Shown piece after piece: positions 7,133-15,317 of a DNA stretch of 64,000 nt. The translations under genes were made by a program, and so were the position numbers. How positions within the stretch are numbered: position 1 is the first letter of the stretch; each line of letters starts with the position of its first letter. The stretch spans positions 806,001 through 870,000 of the forward strand of contig BCGN01000001.1 of NCBI GenBank assembly GCA_001599295.1. The letters are read 5' to 3'. Origin of the DNA: Sporopachydermia quercuum (lineage: Eukaryota > Ascomycota > Sporopachydermiomycetes > Sporopachydermiales > Sporopachydermiaceae). The notes beneath the pieces were generated by a model that saw only the letters and a list, made by a program, of their open reading frames with translations, did no database searches and had not been told where the DNA came from.

Positions 7133-10100
7133 CCTTTCAAGATTTTTTTTCAGATGCTGTACTTTCAGTAGGAGACTCACTATAACATATTACTAATAGA
7201 TTTCTTTCAAATGCTTCTAAAACTGAACAGGAATTGAAACTGGATTTGTTGATAGTTTACATGAGATCATTAAAATGTAAGATAGCTCAGTTTGATTCTT
7301 CCTTCGAACTGTTATGATTGCCTGATGATAATCGCTAGGATTGATATAAAGCGTTTGACGTGTTTGAACTGATCGAAAAGTAACACGATTGACTTATCAT
7401 CAATTATTTTCACTGGATTAATCATTGATCAATCCGTTCTTGAGTTTGCAATAATCAATTCCACGGAGGAGTTGTACACTTACTTGACATACAGTAACTT
7501 CTTTTACTTCGCTCATGTCTTCCAAATAATTATCAAATGCAATAAGAGAGTCGAATCCTCGCAGTATTACATTATGACAATGATCAGAACATCATTAATA
7601 TTCTATCGATAATCTTTTTCGGTGATTCATAAAAACCTCCTTATTGGGATGCTTTGCTTCTGTTTTAGTCTGAATCTCAACTGCTTTTTATTAACTTGTT
7701 TATATTAAATCCTAAACCAGCAGCAGGTTTTCTGAATTCGCTTACAAAAATACCATATTATGCAACTTTATTTACAATTGTGTGCCTAGGAAACCAGAAT
7801 TTGGAATTAGGGGGAATACAGGAGATATCAATAACATAGTCTTCAGAAGCCCAGACATTTTACTCCATCTATTTTCATGCTGTCATCAAAGTATAAAACT
7901 GACGTCTTGAAAATTGACATTTCTCAAAAAGTAGTGAAGCAGAAAGGATGAGAAGTCATTATCAGCTTGCAACTGATGCAACTGTTGCGACTATGTAGAT
8001 TGAAGTTAAATATGATGCATTAGCAATAAAAAAAAGCTGTGATTTAGAAATTTCTTTTACTATTTAATCTACTATTTATTATTTTACTTTTCAATTTCAC
8101 TCCTTGGCTTATCTCATTAGATAGATCGTGTCTTTCACTATGCAATGACAGTTAAGAAATTTCCCTCTAGAGTTGAATAAAGAGAAAGGCACCTCCAAAA
8201 AGAGATATAGAAAATTTCATTAGAAACGCGTAAGAGAATTTGCTACGTCTTTACACATGTTGGTTATTTGAAACTTCTCTTAAATTAAATCAACTAGTAA
8301 GATAGATGAAATTCGCAATGGCGTTCTTTACAGGCAATAGGTAAAGTATTTTTTAGTAATTACGAAATCCTTACTTAATCCTAAAGTTCGATTATTTTCA
8401 GATATTCGAATACATAAAACAGATAGGAGCAGGGCAGTTTCAAATATAGCAGTTTCAAATATAAGAATTCACATGCTTCTAGTAGATAAGAATACATAGC
8501 AATGCCGTTTTACTTACGTTAAGCGTACTTGAATTTCCATTACTTAGTAATAGTAATACGAAGAACAATTAATTGTATTGTCTGGAGCCTATTGGAATGA
8601 AGCAATAATACAAAATTTTGTTCTTCACCTTGCCAAAGAAATGATATACATCTAGACAATATTTAATTATCATACTACATGTTTGGGATCTATCAATCTC
8701 AAACTGCTTTGAATCAAATCGTCCGGCCTGAACGAGGTTATAAATAACTCTCAACTAAAGTCTCCAGCAGATTTGATTATTTTTGACCAAATTCGTGTTT
8801 TTTCTTTACCAACGTTGACTTAATTAAAGTTGTCCCCATTTGTTTGAAAGATTCATACCAAGCACCCAACTGGATATGGGAAATATGGTGAGAAAGTCTA
8901 ATTAAGTATCGCGTGGAAGTGAAATTTTCTCGTGCAAAGGAAGGACGCAACCAAATTGATAGGCTAAAATAGACCGATACTTTTATTCATATAACGAAAA
9001 CAATTCTAACACTTTGAAAAGCTATTCAAAACACATCGTCGAAATATCCAAAATTGCTTGTTTCTCTATCGCCTGCAATTTATTTTGACTCATATTTCTA
9101 AATATCTCGAATAAAATAGCGGCTTATTTTATCTACTATAATTAACTTGCTACATAATATGGTTTGATCTGAAGCTAAGATTGGAAGTTAGAGTTAATGG
9201 TGCATGGACATACAGGAAATTCAAGCACAACCTCATACCTTAAATGCGTCACCACGCATGGTTTATTCTAGACCACCTAATAACTCTAATTAATTGACAT
9301 AGAGAGTTGTTTGATTAATTTTTCGGGGCTTAAAACATACGTTCTGGATCAGGAGCTATCATCTAACAATCAGGACTTGGTATTGCTCAGTGATCACCCG
9401 TTCTTGTTTGTATAAAGTATTGGAAAAGCGTGACTCGATAATACATCTCTGAAGGCTTTTGATAACCGGGAGTAATAACTGACGTGAAGTCAATGATCCA
9501 GTATCCTTCTGTCATTGAAGAAATTTCAGTCTCTAAGCTGAAAAAAATATTGTACAATGTAATTTTTCAAAATTGATCACCAAGTTTCTTTCTATTTCCT
9601 TATTGGATTCTGCTTACTCCCATCTTATCCTTTTGATTTGCTTCCATTTACTCATTCATTCACTCATTTCTTCTCGGCACTGCTACATCACCCCTGAAGT
9701 TTCGGACAATAGCACTAGGTTTTCATTGATTATTCAATATTACCTGTTTTGTATAGTGGCTAAAGGACTCGGACAGTTTATAATTACCCAAAATTTTGAT
9801 CAAAGTTGCTAGAACATAATAACTTCGTCGGTTTGCCATCGGGACAGTTACTTGTCCATTTATCACATTCTGGTTTAGTATTTAAAATAGCTTGAATTGA
9901 ACTTTAACCTAAAGCTTATTTAGCGAAGTGTCGAACTGTGTGCCCTTCATCTTGTTTCAAGATGTGAGTTTTAGTTAACGCCATCGATAGGAATCAGTGT
10001 TTAAATACTCGCAACTATCTTGTTTTACCAAACTCTTCTATCACTTATAAATATTCGGAAGTAATTTATATATCTTGTATAAATTTTACCATTATCGTGA

Positions 10101-10257: not shown

Positions 10258-11121
10258 ATGAGTTCACCTGAATCTGAACCATTCTCTCCAAAAGAAGATC
10301 TTTCTTCTACTCCTTCGTCAGCATTTACTAGTCCTAACTTGGACGAACCATTAACACTAGATAGCTCTCAATTAATTGGAAAGAAGAGTAAAAGATCCAG
10401 TGGGGATTTGATTCCACCCATGCCAATTGGATCTTTACCCCCAAGGAAAAGGGCAAAGACTGAAGAAGAGAAAGAACAACGCAGGATAGAGCGTATTATG
10501 AGAAATAGACAGGCTGCTCACGCTTCAAGGGAAAAGAAGAGAAAGCATGTTGAAGAACTAGAGACAAAATGCCATGAACTGGCAACTGAAAACAATCAGC
10601 TTCAATCTAAGATGTCAGTGTTGAAGTCTCAACAATCAAGCATCTTGGAGCAAAACCAAGAAATGTTAAATCAAATTAAGAAACTCACATCAATCATTAA
10701 ATCATTAAGTGAAAAATCCGGTCTTCCAGTTGATGATCTTCAACTGGAACTCCCAAGTACTAATAAGGCTACTGATGCTACATTGTCGGTACCTGACTTA
10801 CCTCTCAAACTTGAGAGCAAGAATACTGAAACCATATCACCACTTATTTCATCACCTCTTCTTGAAGAGGATTCCAACACATCCTCATGGAATCTACATA
10901 TGAACTCATCACTACCTGTTGAGACACTTCAATCCGTACCATCCACCACCACTTCACCTCTCGATGATTTCGTCCCGTTCGTGATGCATCCAGCAGAGAT
11001 GCACAAAGACCCGCAGCGTCAGAACAGGACGATCCTTTCTTCCATGACTTCATCCTCATGGACGACATCGACGCAACCCCTTGTTTCTAAACCCGTTCAA
11101 AGCCTGCTGATGGCCTGTTAA
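10258..11121 (+). CDS. HAC1: Hac1-type bZIP transcription factor of the unfolded protein response
   Basis: This encodes a bZIP activator of the unfolded protein response, whose mRNA is spliced by Ire1 and tRNA ligase. The basic region is near residues 70-96 (core NRQAAHASREKKRKH, as in Hac1/HacA), followed by a leucine zipper to about residue 150. The ATG at 10258 is chosen because the upstream in-frame codon at 10252 is TTG. The unspliced frame runs 287 residues to 11121 and ends in a Ser/Thr-rich tail. Removing the predicted 20-nt intron 10994-11013 shifts the frame and gives a 270-residue protein ending at 11090 (10258-10993 joined to 11014-11090). Its new tail, beginning AASEQDDPFFHDF, is acidic and hydrophobic, like an activation domain. 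The bZIP assignment is certain. The Hac1 identity is strong because of the paired loops. Confidence 0.9.
   Translation: MSSPESEPFSPKEDLSSTPSSAFTSPNLDEPLTLDSSQLIGKKSKRSSGDLIPPMPIGSLPPRKRAKTEEEKEQRRIERIMRNRQAAHASREKKRKHVEELETKCHELATENNQLQSKMSVLKSQQSSILEQNQEMLNQIKKLTSIIKSLSEKSGLPVDDLQLELPSTNKATDATLSVPDLPLKLESKNTETISPLISSPLLEEDSNTSSWNLHMNSSLPVETLQSVPSTTTSPLDDFVPFVMHPAEMHKDPQRQNRTILSSMTSSSWTTSTQPLVSKPVQSLLMAC
10994..11013 (+). other. HAC1: predicted Ire1-type non-spliceosomal intron of HAC1 (20 nt)
   Basis: Two hairpins flank it. The first has a perfect 6-bp stem (TGCATC 10985-10990 with GATGCA 10998-11003) closing a 7-nt loop CAGCAGA at 10991-10997. The second has a 3-bp stem (GAC 11008-11010 with GTC 11018-11020) closing loop CCGCAGC at 11011-11017. 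Both loops fit the Ire1 consensus CNGCNGN, cut after the third base. The intron lacks GT-AG ends, and its length of 20 nt is not a multiple of three. The 5' hairpin is strong. The 3' stem is short, so the exact 3' cut is slightly less sure. I recall C. albicans HAC1 having a similarly short intron (19 nt). Confidence 0.85.
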
Positions 11122-11939
11122 CTTAGAACATTTTTTTTTTATAATTTCAACTCATTTTGTGTTTGCAAATGGCGCGCTAACGCTGCGACTGGTATTACTG
11201 CAATATGACAGTTGAATTTTAATTTCTTTCACTTAAAATTCTATTTATTAGGCTATCGCGGCTGGTTCTCGATAGATTCCTTGGGTTAGGTTAGGTTTGG
11301 GTTTGGTATGGTTTATTGAAAAATAGTTTTTTAGTCTCTTTCAGAGTTATATAGTCATTGTATCAACAATATACGGTCAGTTTACTTCTCTTGTAATTTT
11401 CACTTGTTGGAATTTCAGTCATTTATGTTTTGTTTCAATCATAAACACCATCCTATCCCATTTATTTCAAGCTTCAAATCACCCTACCTACCCCTCTTAC
11501 ATTTTCCCCATTTTCTTCTTTTTTCACTCGTCTCATATCAGGGGTATTAAGCAAGTTACTTCAAAGCTTTATCTTTTCTTACTTTAGCTTTACGTCTCGT
11601 CTTAGTCTTATGTGTAACTTTGGCTCCAATGATTGATTTTGATCTATCCCATCGAGTTCATTATGATTGATTTGCGAGTGAATGAAGTTTTATAAGAAGT
11701 CATTATAAATAAGCGAATGGCTATAAGATGAATAAGTTCAATTCAACATTTGGCTTTGGATGGAACTGCAGTAGGTATTGAAGAAAGTGCATTAAGTCAA
11801 TTTAGATGGATTAATGGGCTTTGATTGTAATAGAATTGACGAATTTCGACTGAAACTTGACATACAGATAGAAGAATCTCTTTACTTAGAAGTGTACATT
11901 ACATAAGAAAGTATCAGTCTGAAAATAACGATTCGCAAG
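11122..11939. other. HAC1 3' flank and APL3 upstream region
   Basis: This holds the HAC1 3' flank, including the extra hairpin at 11253-11275, pyrimidine-rich tracts around 11450-11530, and the APL3 upstream region. No gene was seen. Confidence 0.5.
11253..11275 (+). other. extra CNGCNGN hairpin downstream of HAC1
   Basis: CTATCG (11253-11258) can pair with CGATAG (11270-11275), leaving an 11-nt loop that begins CGGCTGG, a CNGCNGN match. Use of this as the 3' splice site would end the protein within a few codons, so it is not the preferred site. It may be coincidence. Confidence 0.35.
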
Positions 11940-14900
11940 ATGGGCGCTCCTATGAAAGGTATGTTGTTGATTTTATGGATTGAAATGATGTTCAAAAATT
12001 TTTGGAATGCTTGGAATTCCGGCCAAATTATTGATGAATAGAGATAAGTAAAATTAGTGTGCTAACTGTCATGACAGGTTTAGTACAGTTTATCGCGGAT
12101 ATAAGGAATGCAAAAGTAAAAGAGGCGGCAGAGAAAAGAATACGATTGGAATTGACGAATATTCAAAAGCACTTTTCAGCAAAATCGATCTCAGGATATC
12201 AAAAAAAGAAATATGTCTGTAAATTGCTATACATCTACATTCTAGGGTATCCTATTGAGTTTGGTTATATTGAATCGATCTCATTACTTTCATCGAATGT
12301 TTACTCGGAGAAGCAGATAGGGTACCTTGCTATTTCTTTACTCTTGAATGAGAAAAATAACCTGATTCACTTGGTTATAAATTCTATATCTAAAGATTTA
12401 AACGCTGACAACGAAGAATTCAATGTTTTGGCTCTTCATTGTATAGCAACTATTGGCGGTTCAACAATGGGTGAAATATTCATGGAACCAGTGTACAATC
12501 TCCTAAAATCACCGGTTTCAAGCCCATTGATAAAAAAGAAAGCGGCATTAGCGTTATTATGTTTATTCAGAAACGATCCAAGCAGATTCCCTGCTGAATG
12601 GATTCATAGAGTTATATCATTTATTGATGATCCTGATTTAGGTATTGCAACATCAGCGGCCTCTTTAGTTATAGGATTGCTTGATCAATCAAACCTGATT
12701 GAACCTTTTGCTCCTTGCTACTCTTTGGCAGTGAAAAGCCTGTCAAGAATTGTTCTTGATAAACAATATCCTAAGGAATATGAATACTATTCTATACCAT
12801 GCCCATGGCTTCAAGTTAAGCTATTCCAAATTCTTCAATACTTGGACAGACCGAATGATGATAGCATTTACAATAGTTTGATTCAAATTGTTGTCAAATC
12901 ACTGAATACCAATGTTAGACCTACAGACAACGATCAGCAAGCACATGCCCAGAATTCGATCTTATTTGAAGTTATCAGTTTAGCTATCAAGCTAGACATA
13001 AACACCACAACTATGGATAAAATAGTCAATGCATTAGGGGGATTTTTAACATCAGCCCAAACTAATGGAAGATATTTAGCGTTAGATGCATTGTGCCATG
13101 TCACAACTCAATACGAGAAAAACGTGATTGGTATAAGGGAATTTTTGCCTTCTATAGTAGCATTATTGAAGGATAGAGATATTTCTATTAGAAGAAAATC
13201 GTTAGAGCTTCTATACTGTATCTGCGACTCTACCAATTTAGAGAAAATTGTCGGTGAGTTAATGAAATATCTGGAGTCTTCTGACTATTCCATTAGAGAA
13301 GATTTAGTTATAAAAATTGCTGTGTTAGCTGAAAAATACGCATCAGATTATCAATGGTATGTCCATACCATTTTGAAGCTCATCTCATTGGGTGGCAATC
13401 ATATAACGGACGATGTGTGGGAAAGAGTTATACAGATTGTAGTTAATAACGAATCTATTCAAGTGTACTTCTTGAAAATGATCCTTCAGTATTTAAAGGC
13501 TTCCAGCACTAAGCCTGTTCACGAGATTATTATTCGAATGGGAGCTTACGTATTAGGTGAATATGGACACTTGGTAGTTGACCTTAAAGGATCTGAACCA
13601 ATGGATCAGTACTTGATATTAGCAGAGCACTACCCATTCGTTTCTATTGCAACCAAAGTTATGATGTTGACAGCCTTCGTAAAATTCGCCAATCTGTACC
13701 CCGATATAAGAAACCAATTGGTCCTCTTCTTTGAAACTCAAACAGATAATTATGATTGCGAAATTCAACAAAGATCGTTTGAGTATCTGAACTTGATCAA
13801 ATTTGGAGAATCCTATCCAGAATTCATTGCTACTGTTTTGGAAGAAATGCCACCATTCCCAGCTAGAATCTCTCCTTTGTTAGCCAAACTTGAAACTTCA
13901 AGATTGCAAAGAGATAAAACAATAAGGAAGAAATCTGTTGTTGCCAAAGATCTTGACTTCAGCAATATAACCAGAAGAAATGCAAGCAGTGCAAGCTTGA
14001 ATACTCGGCGAAGGCGGTCATCTGAGTTTAATGGTAACAATGGTGGTGCCAACTCTTATGCTGGCGCATCAAACGCTCCACCAACTTCTTCCTCTTCTCC
14101 AACAAAAAAACTTGTACCCCAGTTCACAGGGTCTACTTCAACGTTTATGACAGAACAAGCTGGGGGCTCCTCTTCTAGAGCCAGTCCACCACCTGTTCCT
14201 GCAATACCTTTAACTGCCAATTGGGAGCAGGGTTACTATCGTTTAGCTCATTTCTTATCAGGAGTGTTTTTTGAAAACTCGTTAACAAAGATCCTTCTAA
14301 GAACTGAATACTCCGGTGACACAGGGTACATCACTATTGATTTTCTAAATAAAAGTCCTAGTGCTATGAACTCAGTATACTCTGAAATTACTGTTCCTTT
14401 TATCAAGTTAATTGAAAACTCGGAAGAAAGATTTATTCCTTTGCAAATAACAACTGAAAAATCATTAAGTGCTGAGGTACCTATCAAATCAAGGACAAGC
14501 CAAGTTGTAAAAGTTACTGTGAATAGACCTTATGATAATCCACCTAGGATTCGGTTCTCTTTCATGTCAGGTATTCTTAGTACGATTGATCTAAAGTTAC
14601 CGATTTTGCTGCACAAGTTTTTGAAGCCAACGCCATTAAATGCAGAAGAATTCTTCCGGAGATGGAAGCAAATTGGTGCTGAGAATGGTCGACAATTCCA
14701 GCAAGTATTCAGAAGTAAGAGTAAGCTGAATCATCAAACCAATGAAAGAATGATGACATTAATGAATTGGGGAGTTTGCAGTAATGTCGATAAATCTCCT
14801 AATGCCGTTGTCGGAGCAGCATTATTGAAAACAGCCAAAGGAGGAACTTTTGGATGTCTATTAAGGTTAGAACCAAATGATAGTTTTACGGTAAGTATTG

Positions 14901-15036
14901 TTTTATTTATGTATAAACGTCTCTATTCAACTACTAACATTTCTAGATGTATCGTGTTACTATTAGAACTACGGATGGCGAAGTTTCTAGGATTCTTGGA
15001 TCTTTTATTGTTGAGTTATATGAAATGGGTCCTTAA
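11940..15036 (+). CDS. APL3: AP-2 adaptor complex alpha subunit, three exons
   Basis: This is the large alpha subunit of the AP-2 clathrin adaptor, which links clathrin to cargo and PI(4,5)P2 at the plasma membrane. The exons are 11940-11958, 12078-14890 and 14947-15036, giving 973 residues. The 19-nt first exon encodes MGAPMK plus one base, and splicing restores MGAPMKGLVQFIADIRNAK, the alpha-adaptin start. The trunk is a HEAT-like solenoid with family motifs such as LAEKYASDYQWYV and VLEEMPPFP. A Ser/Pro-rich hinge (about residues 640-710) precedes the ear domain. The last 29 codons, beginning MYRVTIRTTDGEVSR, form exon 3 and end MGP before TAA at 15034. Intron 1 (119 nt) and intron 2 (56 nt) are GT-AG with GCTAAC and ACTAAC branch points. 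CTG falls at conserved leucines here. Confidence 0.93.
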
Positions 15037-15317
15037 ATATAGTTTGGTTTATAAACACATGTTATAGATGTTGAAAGTGTATGTAAGTAAATCATAGAAT
15101 GTGAAGCACAGAATTACAGGTGATTCAATGAATATGAAATAAATATTCAGAAGCCTATATAAATTAGGACTACGTTGATTCAGCCTTCCGGCACTGAAGA
15201 ACAAATTGTATACATTGATCTACTTTGTGCTCCTATGTTGATTACATTCATTATATACAGTTAGACCAACATCAGAAATGTTGCAAATCATCAGAAAGCA
15301 ACACACTATATCTACTT

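Follow-up and report, generated by a model that had tools for sequence, protein, structure and literature searches.

Does the bZIP gene at 10258–11121 in this stretch of the Sporopachydermia quercuum genome produce an mRNA with a short non-spliceosomal intron of the kind that Ire1 removes from HAC1, or are the hairpins in its 3′ part a relic or a product of chance? We addressed this question in the whole 64-kb stretch of DNA (64,000 nt, hereafter the window), in the rest of the genome, and among related proteins. All coordinates are window positions.

The gene encodes a Hac1-type bZIP protein

The locus is read as follows.

10258–11121, plus strand: HAC1 open reading frame (ORF) in its unspliced reading (Hac1u, 287 aa), based on the ORF, a Pfam match and HAC1-named relatives

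Judged by its sequence, this ORF encodes a Hac1-type bZIP protein, with orthology taken from the best matches. The bZIP domain (PF00170, E 2.1e-11) covers about residues 71–133 of the 287-aa product, and the ORF is the best of the seven PF00170 matches found in its own genome (16.4 Mb, 12 contigs). A protein search gave 577 matches at E ≤ 0.001. Among the best 120 of these, the named proteins near the top were HAC1 of Yarrowia and Sugiyamaella; Blastobotrys, Nadsonia, and Geotrichum contributed uncharacterised proteins. A reading made earlier from the sequence alone (the sequence-only reading) had called the gene Hac1-like, and the Pfam match and the HAC1-named relatives bear this out. As a Hac1/Xbp1 relative, the gene has its predicted intron after the bZIP domain, in a position that alters the C-terminal frame.

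Two splice-site loops delimit a predicted 20-nt intron

The predicted exons, intron, and hairpins are as follows.

10258–10993, plus strand: predicted coding part of exon 1, ending in CAG within the 5′ loop, with the cut placed by loop geometry and frame
10985–11003, plus strand: 5′ splice-site hairpin with a perfect 6-bp stem, TGCATC (10985–10990) paired with GATGCA (10998–11003), based on sequence, energy and the RF04247 alignment
10994–11013, plus strand: predicted 20-nt Ire1-type intron, CAGAGATGCACAAAGACCCG, based on sequence, loop geometry and frame
11008–11020, plus strand: 3′ splice-site hairpin with a 3-bp stem, GAC (11008–11010) paired with GTC (11018–11020), based on sequence, energy and the RF04247 alignment
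11014–11090, plus strand: predicted coding part of exon 2, 24 codons past the junction codon and then TAA, encoding an acidic tail, based on the frame

Both loops are 7 nt long and of the form CNG/CNGN (the slash marks the cut), and both stems are Watson–Crick paired, with 6 and 3 bp. The predicted cuts fall after 10993 in the 5′ loop CAGCAGA (10991–10997, CAG/CAGA) and after 11013 in the 3′ loop CCGCAGC (11011–11017, CCG/CAGC). The available part of PMC6037481 gives CNG/CNGN as the loop motif of Ire1-dependent HAC1/XBP1 introns. On its own, the 5′ hairpin has a predicted energy of −6.2 kcal/mol and the 3′ hairpin, whose 3-bp stem is weak, −1.2 kcal/mol.

Because the intron is 20 nt long, its removal shifts the frame. 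The spliced frame reads through HPA into ASEQDDPFFHDFILMDDIDATPCF and stops at TAA (11088–11090), giving 270 aa overall. Starting with the splice codon, the tail of the spliced form, AASEQDDPFFHDFILMDDIDATPCF, has 25 aa with seven D/E and no K/R (net −7), compared with 42 aa, 13 S/T and net +2 for the unspliced tail. Codon use did not favour the spliced frame in exon 2 (−4.38 versus −4.26 for the unspliced frame). The sequence-only reading had proposed the two loops on 6-bp and 3-bp stems, cuts that would remove 10994–11013, the new stop at 11090, and the exchange of a Ser/Thr-rich tail for an acidic one; as features of the sequence, all of these, coordinates included, were confirmed.

Predicted exon–exon helices and the match to a known intron family

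In the predicted fold, exon sequences on either side of the intron pair with each other in two helices.

10970–10980, plus strand: 5′ arm of the outer helix, UCGUCC (10970–10975) and GUUC (10977–10980), pairing with 11022–11032
11022–11032, plus strand: 3′ arm of the outer helix, GAAC, a bulged A, and GGACGA, based on the predicted fold and RF04247
10982–10987, plus strand: 5′ arm of the zipper helix, UGAUGC, overlapping the 5′ hairpin stem (predicted fold)
11016–11021, plus strand: 3′ arm of the zipper helix, GCGUCA (predicted fold)
10969–11033, plus strand: match to Rfam RF04247, "bZIP non canonical Hac1/Xbp1 intron", over the whole model (1–72), 37.8 bits, E 5e-5

The outer helix (10 bp) is predicted to enclose both hairpins, and a sample pair within it has a probability of 0.9998 in the fold model. 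The same sort of helix occurs in the RF04247 consensus. The zipper (6 bp, including one G–U) adjoins the outer helix and is predicted to form only with the hairpins open. Neither helix was part of the sequence-only reading; both are of kinds that are already known.

The RF04247 match came from a 2.7-kb search against 4227 families, with a covariance model independent of the sequence-only reading. The alignment covers the outer helix and both hairpins and falls on exactly the two loops proposed above. Compared with the consensus, the site has a short 3′ stem and fewer junction bases. Its score lies below the curated gathering score of 41, and a default scan of the window therefore reports no RF04247 match. 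Given the E-value and full-length alignment together with the sub-gathering score, we class the element as an Ire1-type intron and not as a curated member of RF04247. A genome-wide search with this model at E up to 10 returned no match (446 first-look candidates, 73 scored); this result is uninformative, because the site in the window was not recovered either.

Chance hairpins and other junctions

A score under the gathering cut-off would be compatible with hairpins that arose by chance towards the 3′ end of a bZIP gene and undergo no processing. We considered how often such features occur in random and recoded sequence. Random first-order sequence (200 × 64 kb = 12.8 Mb, one strand each) contained no pair of such loops with both stems of at least 3 bp within 60 nt. 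Synonymous recodings of the unspliced protein were then made in the intron region, with codon weights from two genes only. Single features, to which the peptide as such is favourable, were the less rare ones among 20 000 recodings, with the 5′ stem in 3463, the 3′ stem in 1468, the outer helix in 691, both loops in 426, and the zipper in 62; neither stem by itself is rare. Combinations were rarer: both loops with both stems were retained in 4/20 000, and the pairings of the outer helix, hairpins, and zipper together (loops not required) in 3/20 000. The observed folding energy of −22.0 kcal/mol was reached by three of 4000 recodings (mean −10.5, sd 3.1). With the random-sequence result, the exon–exon helix, and the homologous position of the site in HAC1 relatives (see below) all against it, a chance origin without processing is extremely improbable.

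A second concern is that Ire1 might cut another pair of junctions, which would yield a different intron and tail. The 3′ stem is short, and the window holds 115 CNGCNG core sites, which can be read on both strands because the core is palindromic. Against this, 10991–10997 with 11011–11017 was the only loop pair with both stems of at least 3 bp within 60 nt on either strand of the window, RF04247 aligns to precisely these loops, and the decoded sites of the relatives fall on the matching HPA and QR codons. We consider the use of other junctions very improbable.

Relatives share the predicted splice-site codons

Intron lengths in relatives were decoded from their unspliced proteins, many of which carry an HPA…QR tail, and not from their DNA, at the codon phase of HAC1 here; since the decoding fixes the phase, lengths of 2 mod 3 are built in. 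An HPA, HSA, YPA, or NPA string was present in 88 of the best 120 proteins (of 577), and a downstream QR as well in 34. Introns were implied by 27 of the 120 listed proteins, with lengths of 20 nt (two proteins), 23 nt (eight), 26 nt (seven), 29 nt (seven), and 32 nt (three). Seven of the 34 decoded pairs were dropped as spurious (11, 11, 149, 182, 275, 299, and 302 nt implied). The remaining 86 of the 120 had no in-frame pair, some of them because the unspliced frame stops soon past HPA.

The decoding placed no condition on the residue immediately preceding the predicted 3′ cut. In all 27 proteins this residue was one that CNG can encode, namely Q in 19, L in six, and P in two. In the seven dropped matches it was I, E, S, E, V, V, and N, none of them encodable by CNG. 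The decoding gave 29 nt for Yarrowia lipolytica, which is the published size and thus checks the method, and 20 nt for Sugiyamaella. The splice sites decoded in these relatives thus lie at the HPA and QR codons that are also used in the prediction for HAC1 here.

The evidence for a tail shared with Hac1 of related yeasts was weak and mixed. When the spliced protein was used as the query, the alternate-tail protein of Yarrowia sp. C11 rose by 5 bits, from 131 to 136, and took first rank, and a Yarrowia-like unspliced protein fell from 138 to 132 bits. The tails of the spliced protein here and of Yarrowia are both acidic and hydrophobic. The local alignment of the two tails was not significant, as 352 of 2000 shuffles reached its score.

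Ire1, tRNA ligase, and the possibility of a relic

A single Ire1-type match was found in the genome. It is a frame of 1329 aa that combines a kinase domain, a Ribonuc_2-5A (RNase) domain and, in its N-terminal half, a PQQ-type luminal match under the curated cut-off. The tRNA ligase (TRL1) is likewise represented by one frame, which spans 843 aa and has ligase, kinase, and phosphodiesterase domains. The IRE1 and TRL1 frames are open and carry 1 and 7 N bases, respectively (read as X). Single N bases are scattered in these regions (10 in 3.9 kb around the tRNA ligase, 2 in 5.7 kb around Ire1, none in the window) and are masked or ambiguous assembly bases.

We then looked for pairing between the intron and an assumed 300-nt leader. 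The best pairing with the 20-nt intron was −6.7 kcal/mol, and 297 of 300 shuffled leaders paired as well or better. Larger regions did not pair with the leader above shuffles either (168/300 and 195/300 as good or better). As the 300 nt before the ATG lack intron pairing, a translation block of the S. cerevisiae type is not indicated. Leader–intron pairing blocks translation of S. cerevisiae HAC1 (PMC10608004, in the part available), a feature of that gene that we did not find at HAC1 here. According to the accessible text of PMC4488935 and PMC6627864, the short introns of other fungi cannot form leader pairing either, and the review PMC10608004, as far as its available text goes, sets the short Yarrowia and C. 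albicans introns against the pairing ones.

The lack of a detected leader–intron pairing that would block the unspliced form, together with an unspliced frame that is fully open and ordinary in codon use, would suit a gene that is HAC1 but is no longer spliced by Ire1, so that only the 287-aa form is used. A variant of this reading is that Ire1 acts without Hac1, a behaviour reported in Candida glabrata (PMC6222058, available part). However, the loops, both stems, the outer helix, and the open alternative frame are all intact, loops and stems together survived just those few recodings, and the IRE1 and TRL1 frames are open. We therefore regard a relic as improbable, although less so than the use of other junctions.

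Taken with the RF04247 match, the HAC1 relatives, and the presence of IRE1 and TRL1, which support the intron type named by the sequence-only reading, the sequence indicates that 10994–11013 is almost certainly a non-spliceosomal Ire1-type intron of a yeast HAC1, with cleavage and ligation inferred. Upon ER stress, the Ire1 RNase would cut both loops after CNG. The exons, held to each other by base pairing, would refold into a longer helix, expelling the 20-nt intron, and Trl1 would join them. The joined mRNA would be translated into a 270-aa Hac1 whose acidic, hydrophobic tail is expected to serve as the activation segment, and the unspliced mRNA would give the 287-aa protein with a Ser/Thr-rich tail and presumably little activity.

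The fold of the uncut and spliced RNA

The zipper was present in the predicted minimum-energy folds of the precursor, the cleaved exon pair, and the spliced RNA. The best predicted energies were −23.0 for the spliced RNA, with the junction in an 8-nt loop, and −24.4 for the two separate exon pieces. For the uncut RNA, the zippered fold had −20.9 in its plain version and −22.0 at the minimum, compared with −20.2 for the three-way fold with twin hairpins. Sample-pair probabilities in the uncut-RNA model were 0.79 for the zipper, 0.28 for the 5′ hairpin, and 0.20 for the 3′ hairpin. The zippered and twin-hairpin folds are close in energy, and either may dominate; the gap of about 1–2 kcal/mol is within the usual error of such values. 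The zipper is similar to an exon rearrangement that was found first in XBP1 and later in S. cerevisiae HAC1 (PMC6037481, available part).

The model leaves room for a two-state switch in the uncut HAC1 RNA. The zippered exon–exon helix, whose usual place is after cleavage, would already be slightly favoured before any cut and would hide the loops, and stress or Ire1 binding would have to shift the RNA to the twin-hairpin form. We consider this doubtful. If true, it would keep a short intron silent without any leader pairing.

Surroundings of HAC1

Within 500 nt of the HAC1 start, the only upstream ATG is at 9962, a one-codon ATG-TGA that could affect translation, should it be part of the leader. 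The core of the UPRE is CAGCGTG. This motif was absent from the 1 kb upstream of HAC1, and likewise for four of the seven Hsp70 matches, including one that ends in HDEL; it may not be the motif of this lineage. Two sites upstream of HAC1, at 9948 (plus strand) and 9958 (minus strand), fit the degenerate form CANCNTG.

Downstream of HAC1 lies the gene for AP-2 alpha adaptin (APL3, 12071–15067). Its product shares no more than 47% identity with any of the best 120 listed proteins, and the yeast therefore belongs to a poorly sampled lineage. The nearest named matches among those listed for HAC1 and AP-2 alpha include Yarrowia, Sugiyamaella, Trichomonascus, and Blastobotrys.

The spacer after HAC1 contains a telomere-like run, GGGTTAGGTTAGGTTTGGGTTTGG, at 11283–11306. 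Allowing at most one mismatch, GGTTAGGTTAGG had two matches in the window, both overlapping this run, against 0.12 expected; two of 100 shuffles also had two. We presume that the run could be a Tbf1/Rap1-type site or a relic. Elsewhere in the window, an imperfect 24-bp tandem repeat, CAGCAGCACCACCAACGGCAGCAG, at 904–962 holds 7 of the 115 CNGCNG cores.

Comparison with known systems and implications

The HAC1 element looks like a clear further example of a well-known switch and not a new kind of system. S. cerevisiae HAC1 (252-nt intron) and metazoan XBP1 (26-nt intron) are of the same kind, with Ire1 cleavage and joining by tRNA ligase or RtcB, as described in the available literature excerpts. 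A close parallel in layout is Yarrowia lipolytica, which likewise has a Hac1 bZIP protein, sites at HPA and QR codons, and a short 2 mod 3 intron. That intron has 29 nt, compared with 20 nt here, and is spliced on ER stress (PMC10608004, available part). In the Yarrowia sp. C11 record, the alternate tail is acidic and hydrophobic, as here; it is much longer, and the join in that record lies at a slightly different place and lacks HPA.

Short HAC1 introns are already established in other fungi. The sequence-only reading had compared the small size with Candida albicans, and this parallel holds: C. albicans HAC1 has a 19-nt intron (PMC6222058, available part), likewise very short and in a yeast, albeit of another lineage. 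The size is less special than was thought, given the 29 nt of Yarrowia and the hacA/hac1 introns of filamentous fungi, with 20 nt in Aspergillus and Trichoderma and 23 nt in Neurospora (available parts of PMC4488935 and PMC6627864). The filamentous-fungus introns share with HAC1 here a length of about 20 nt and the frame shift, and Neurospora also has twin hairpins and a shorter induced protein, as far as the excerpts show. In those fungi, stress also shortens the 5′ leader (PMC10608004, PMC4488935 and PMC6627864, in the parts available).

Contractions and expansions of the HAC1 intron have been described in the CTG-Ser1 clade; for the ancestor of the Saccharomycotina, the same study concluded from the lineages sampled at that time that the intron was of medium length (PMC6222058, available part). 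The short introns predicted here, known in Yarrowia, and decoded in Sugiyamaella, Nadsonia, and Lipomyces, where the lengths come from proteins, would instead agree with an ancestral intron that was short, like those of filamentous fungi, and grew longer afterwards. Several of these short-intron lineages are early-branching. For annotation, HAC1 of this yeast needs a 20-nt non-GT-AG intron, as otherwise the presumed active form is missed. The locus adds a well-defined short-intron HAC1 from a poorly sampled yeast lineage.
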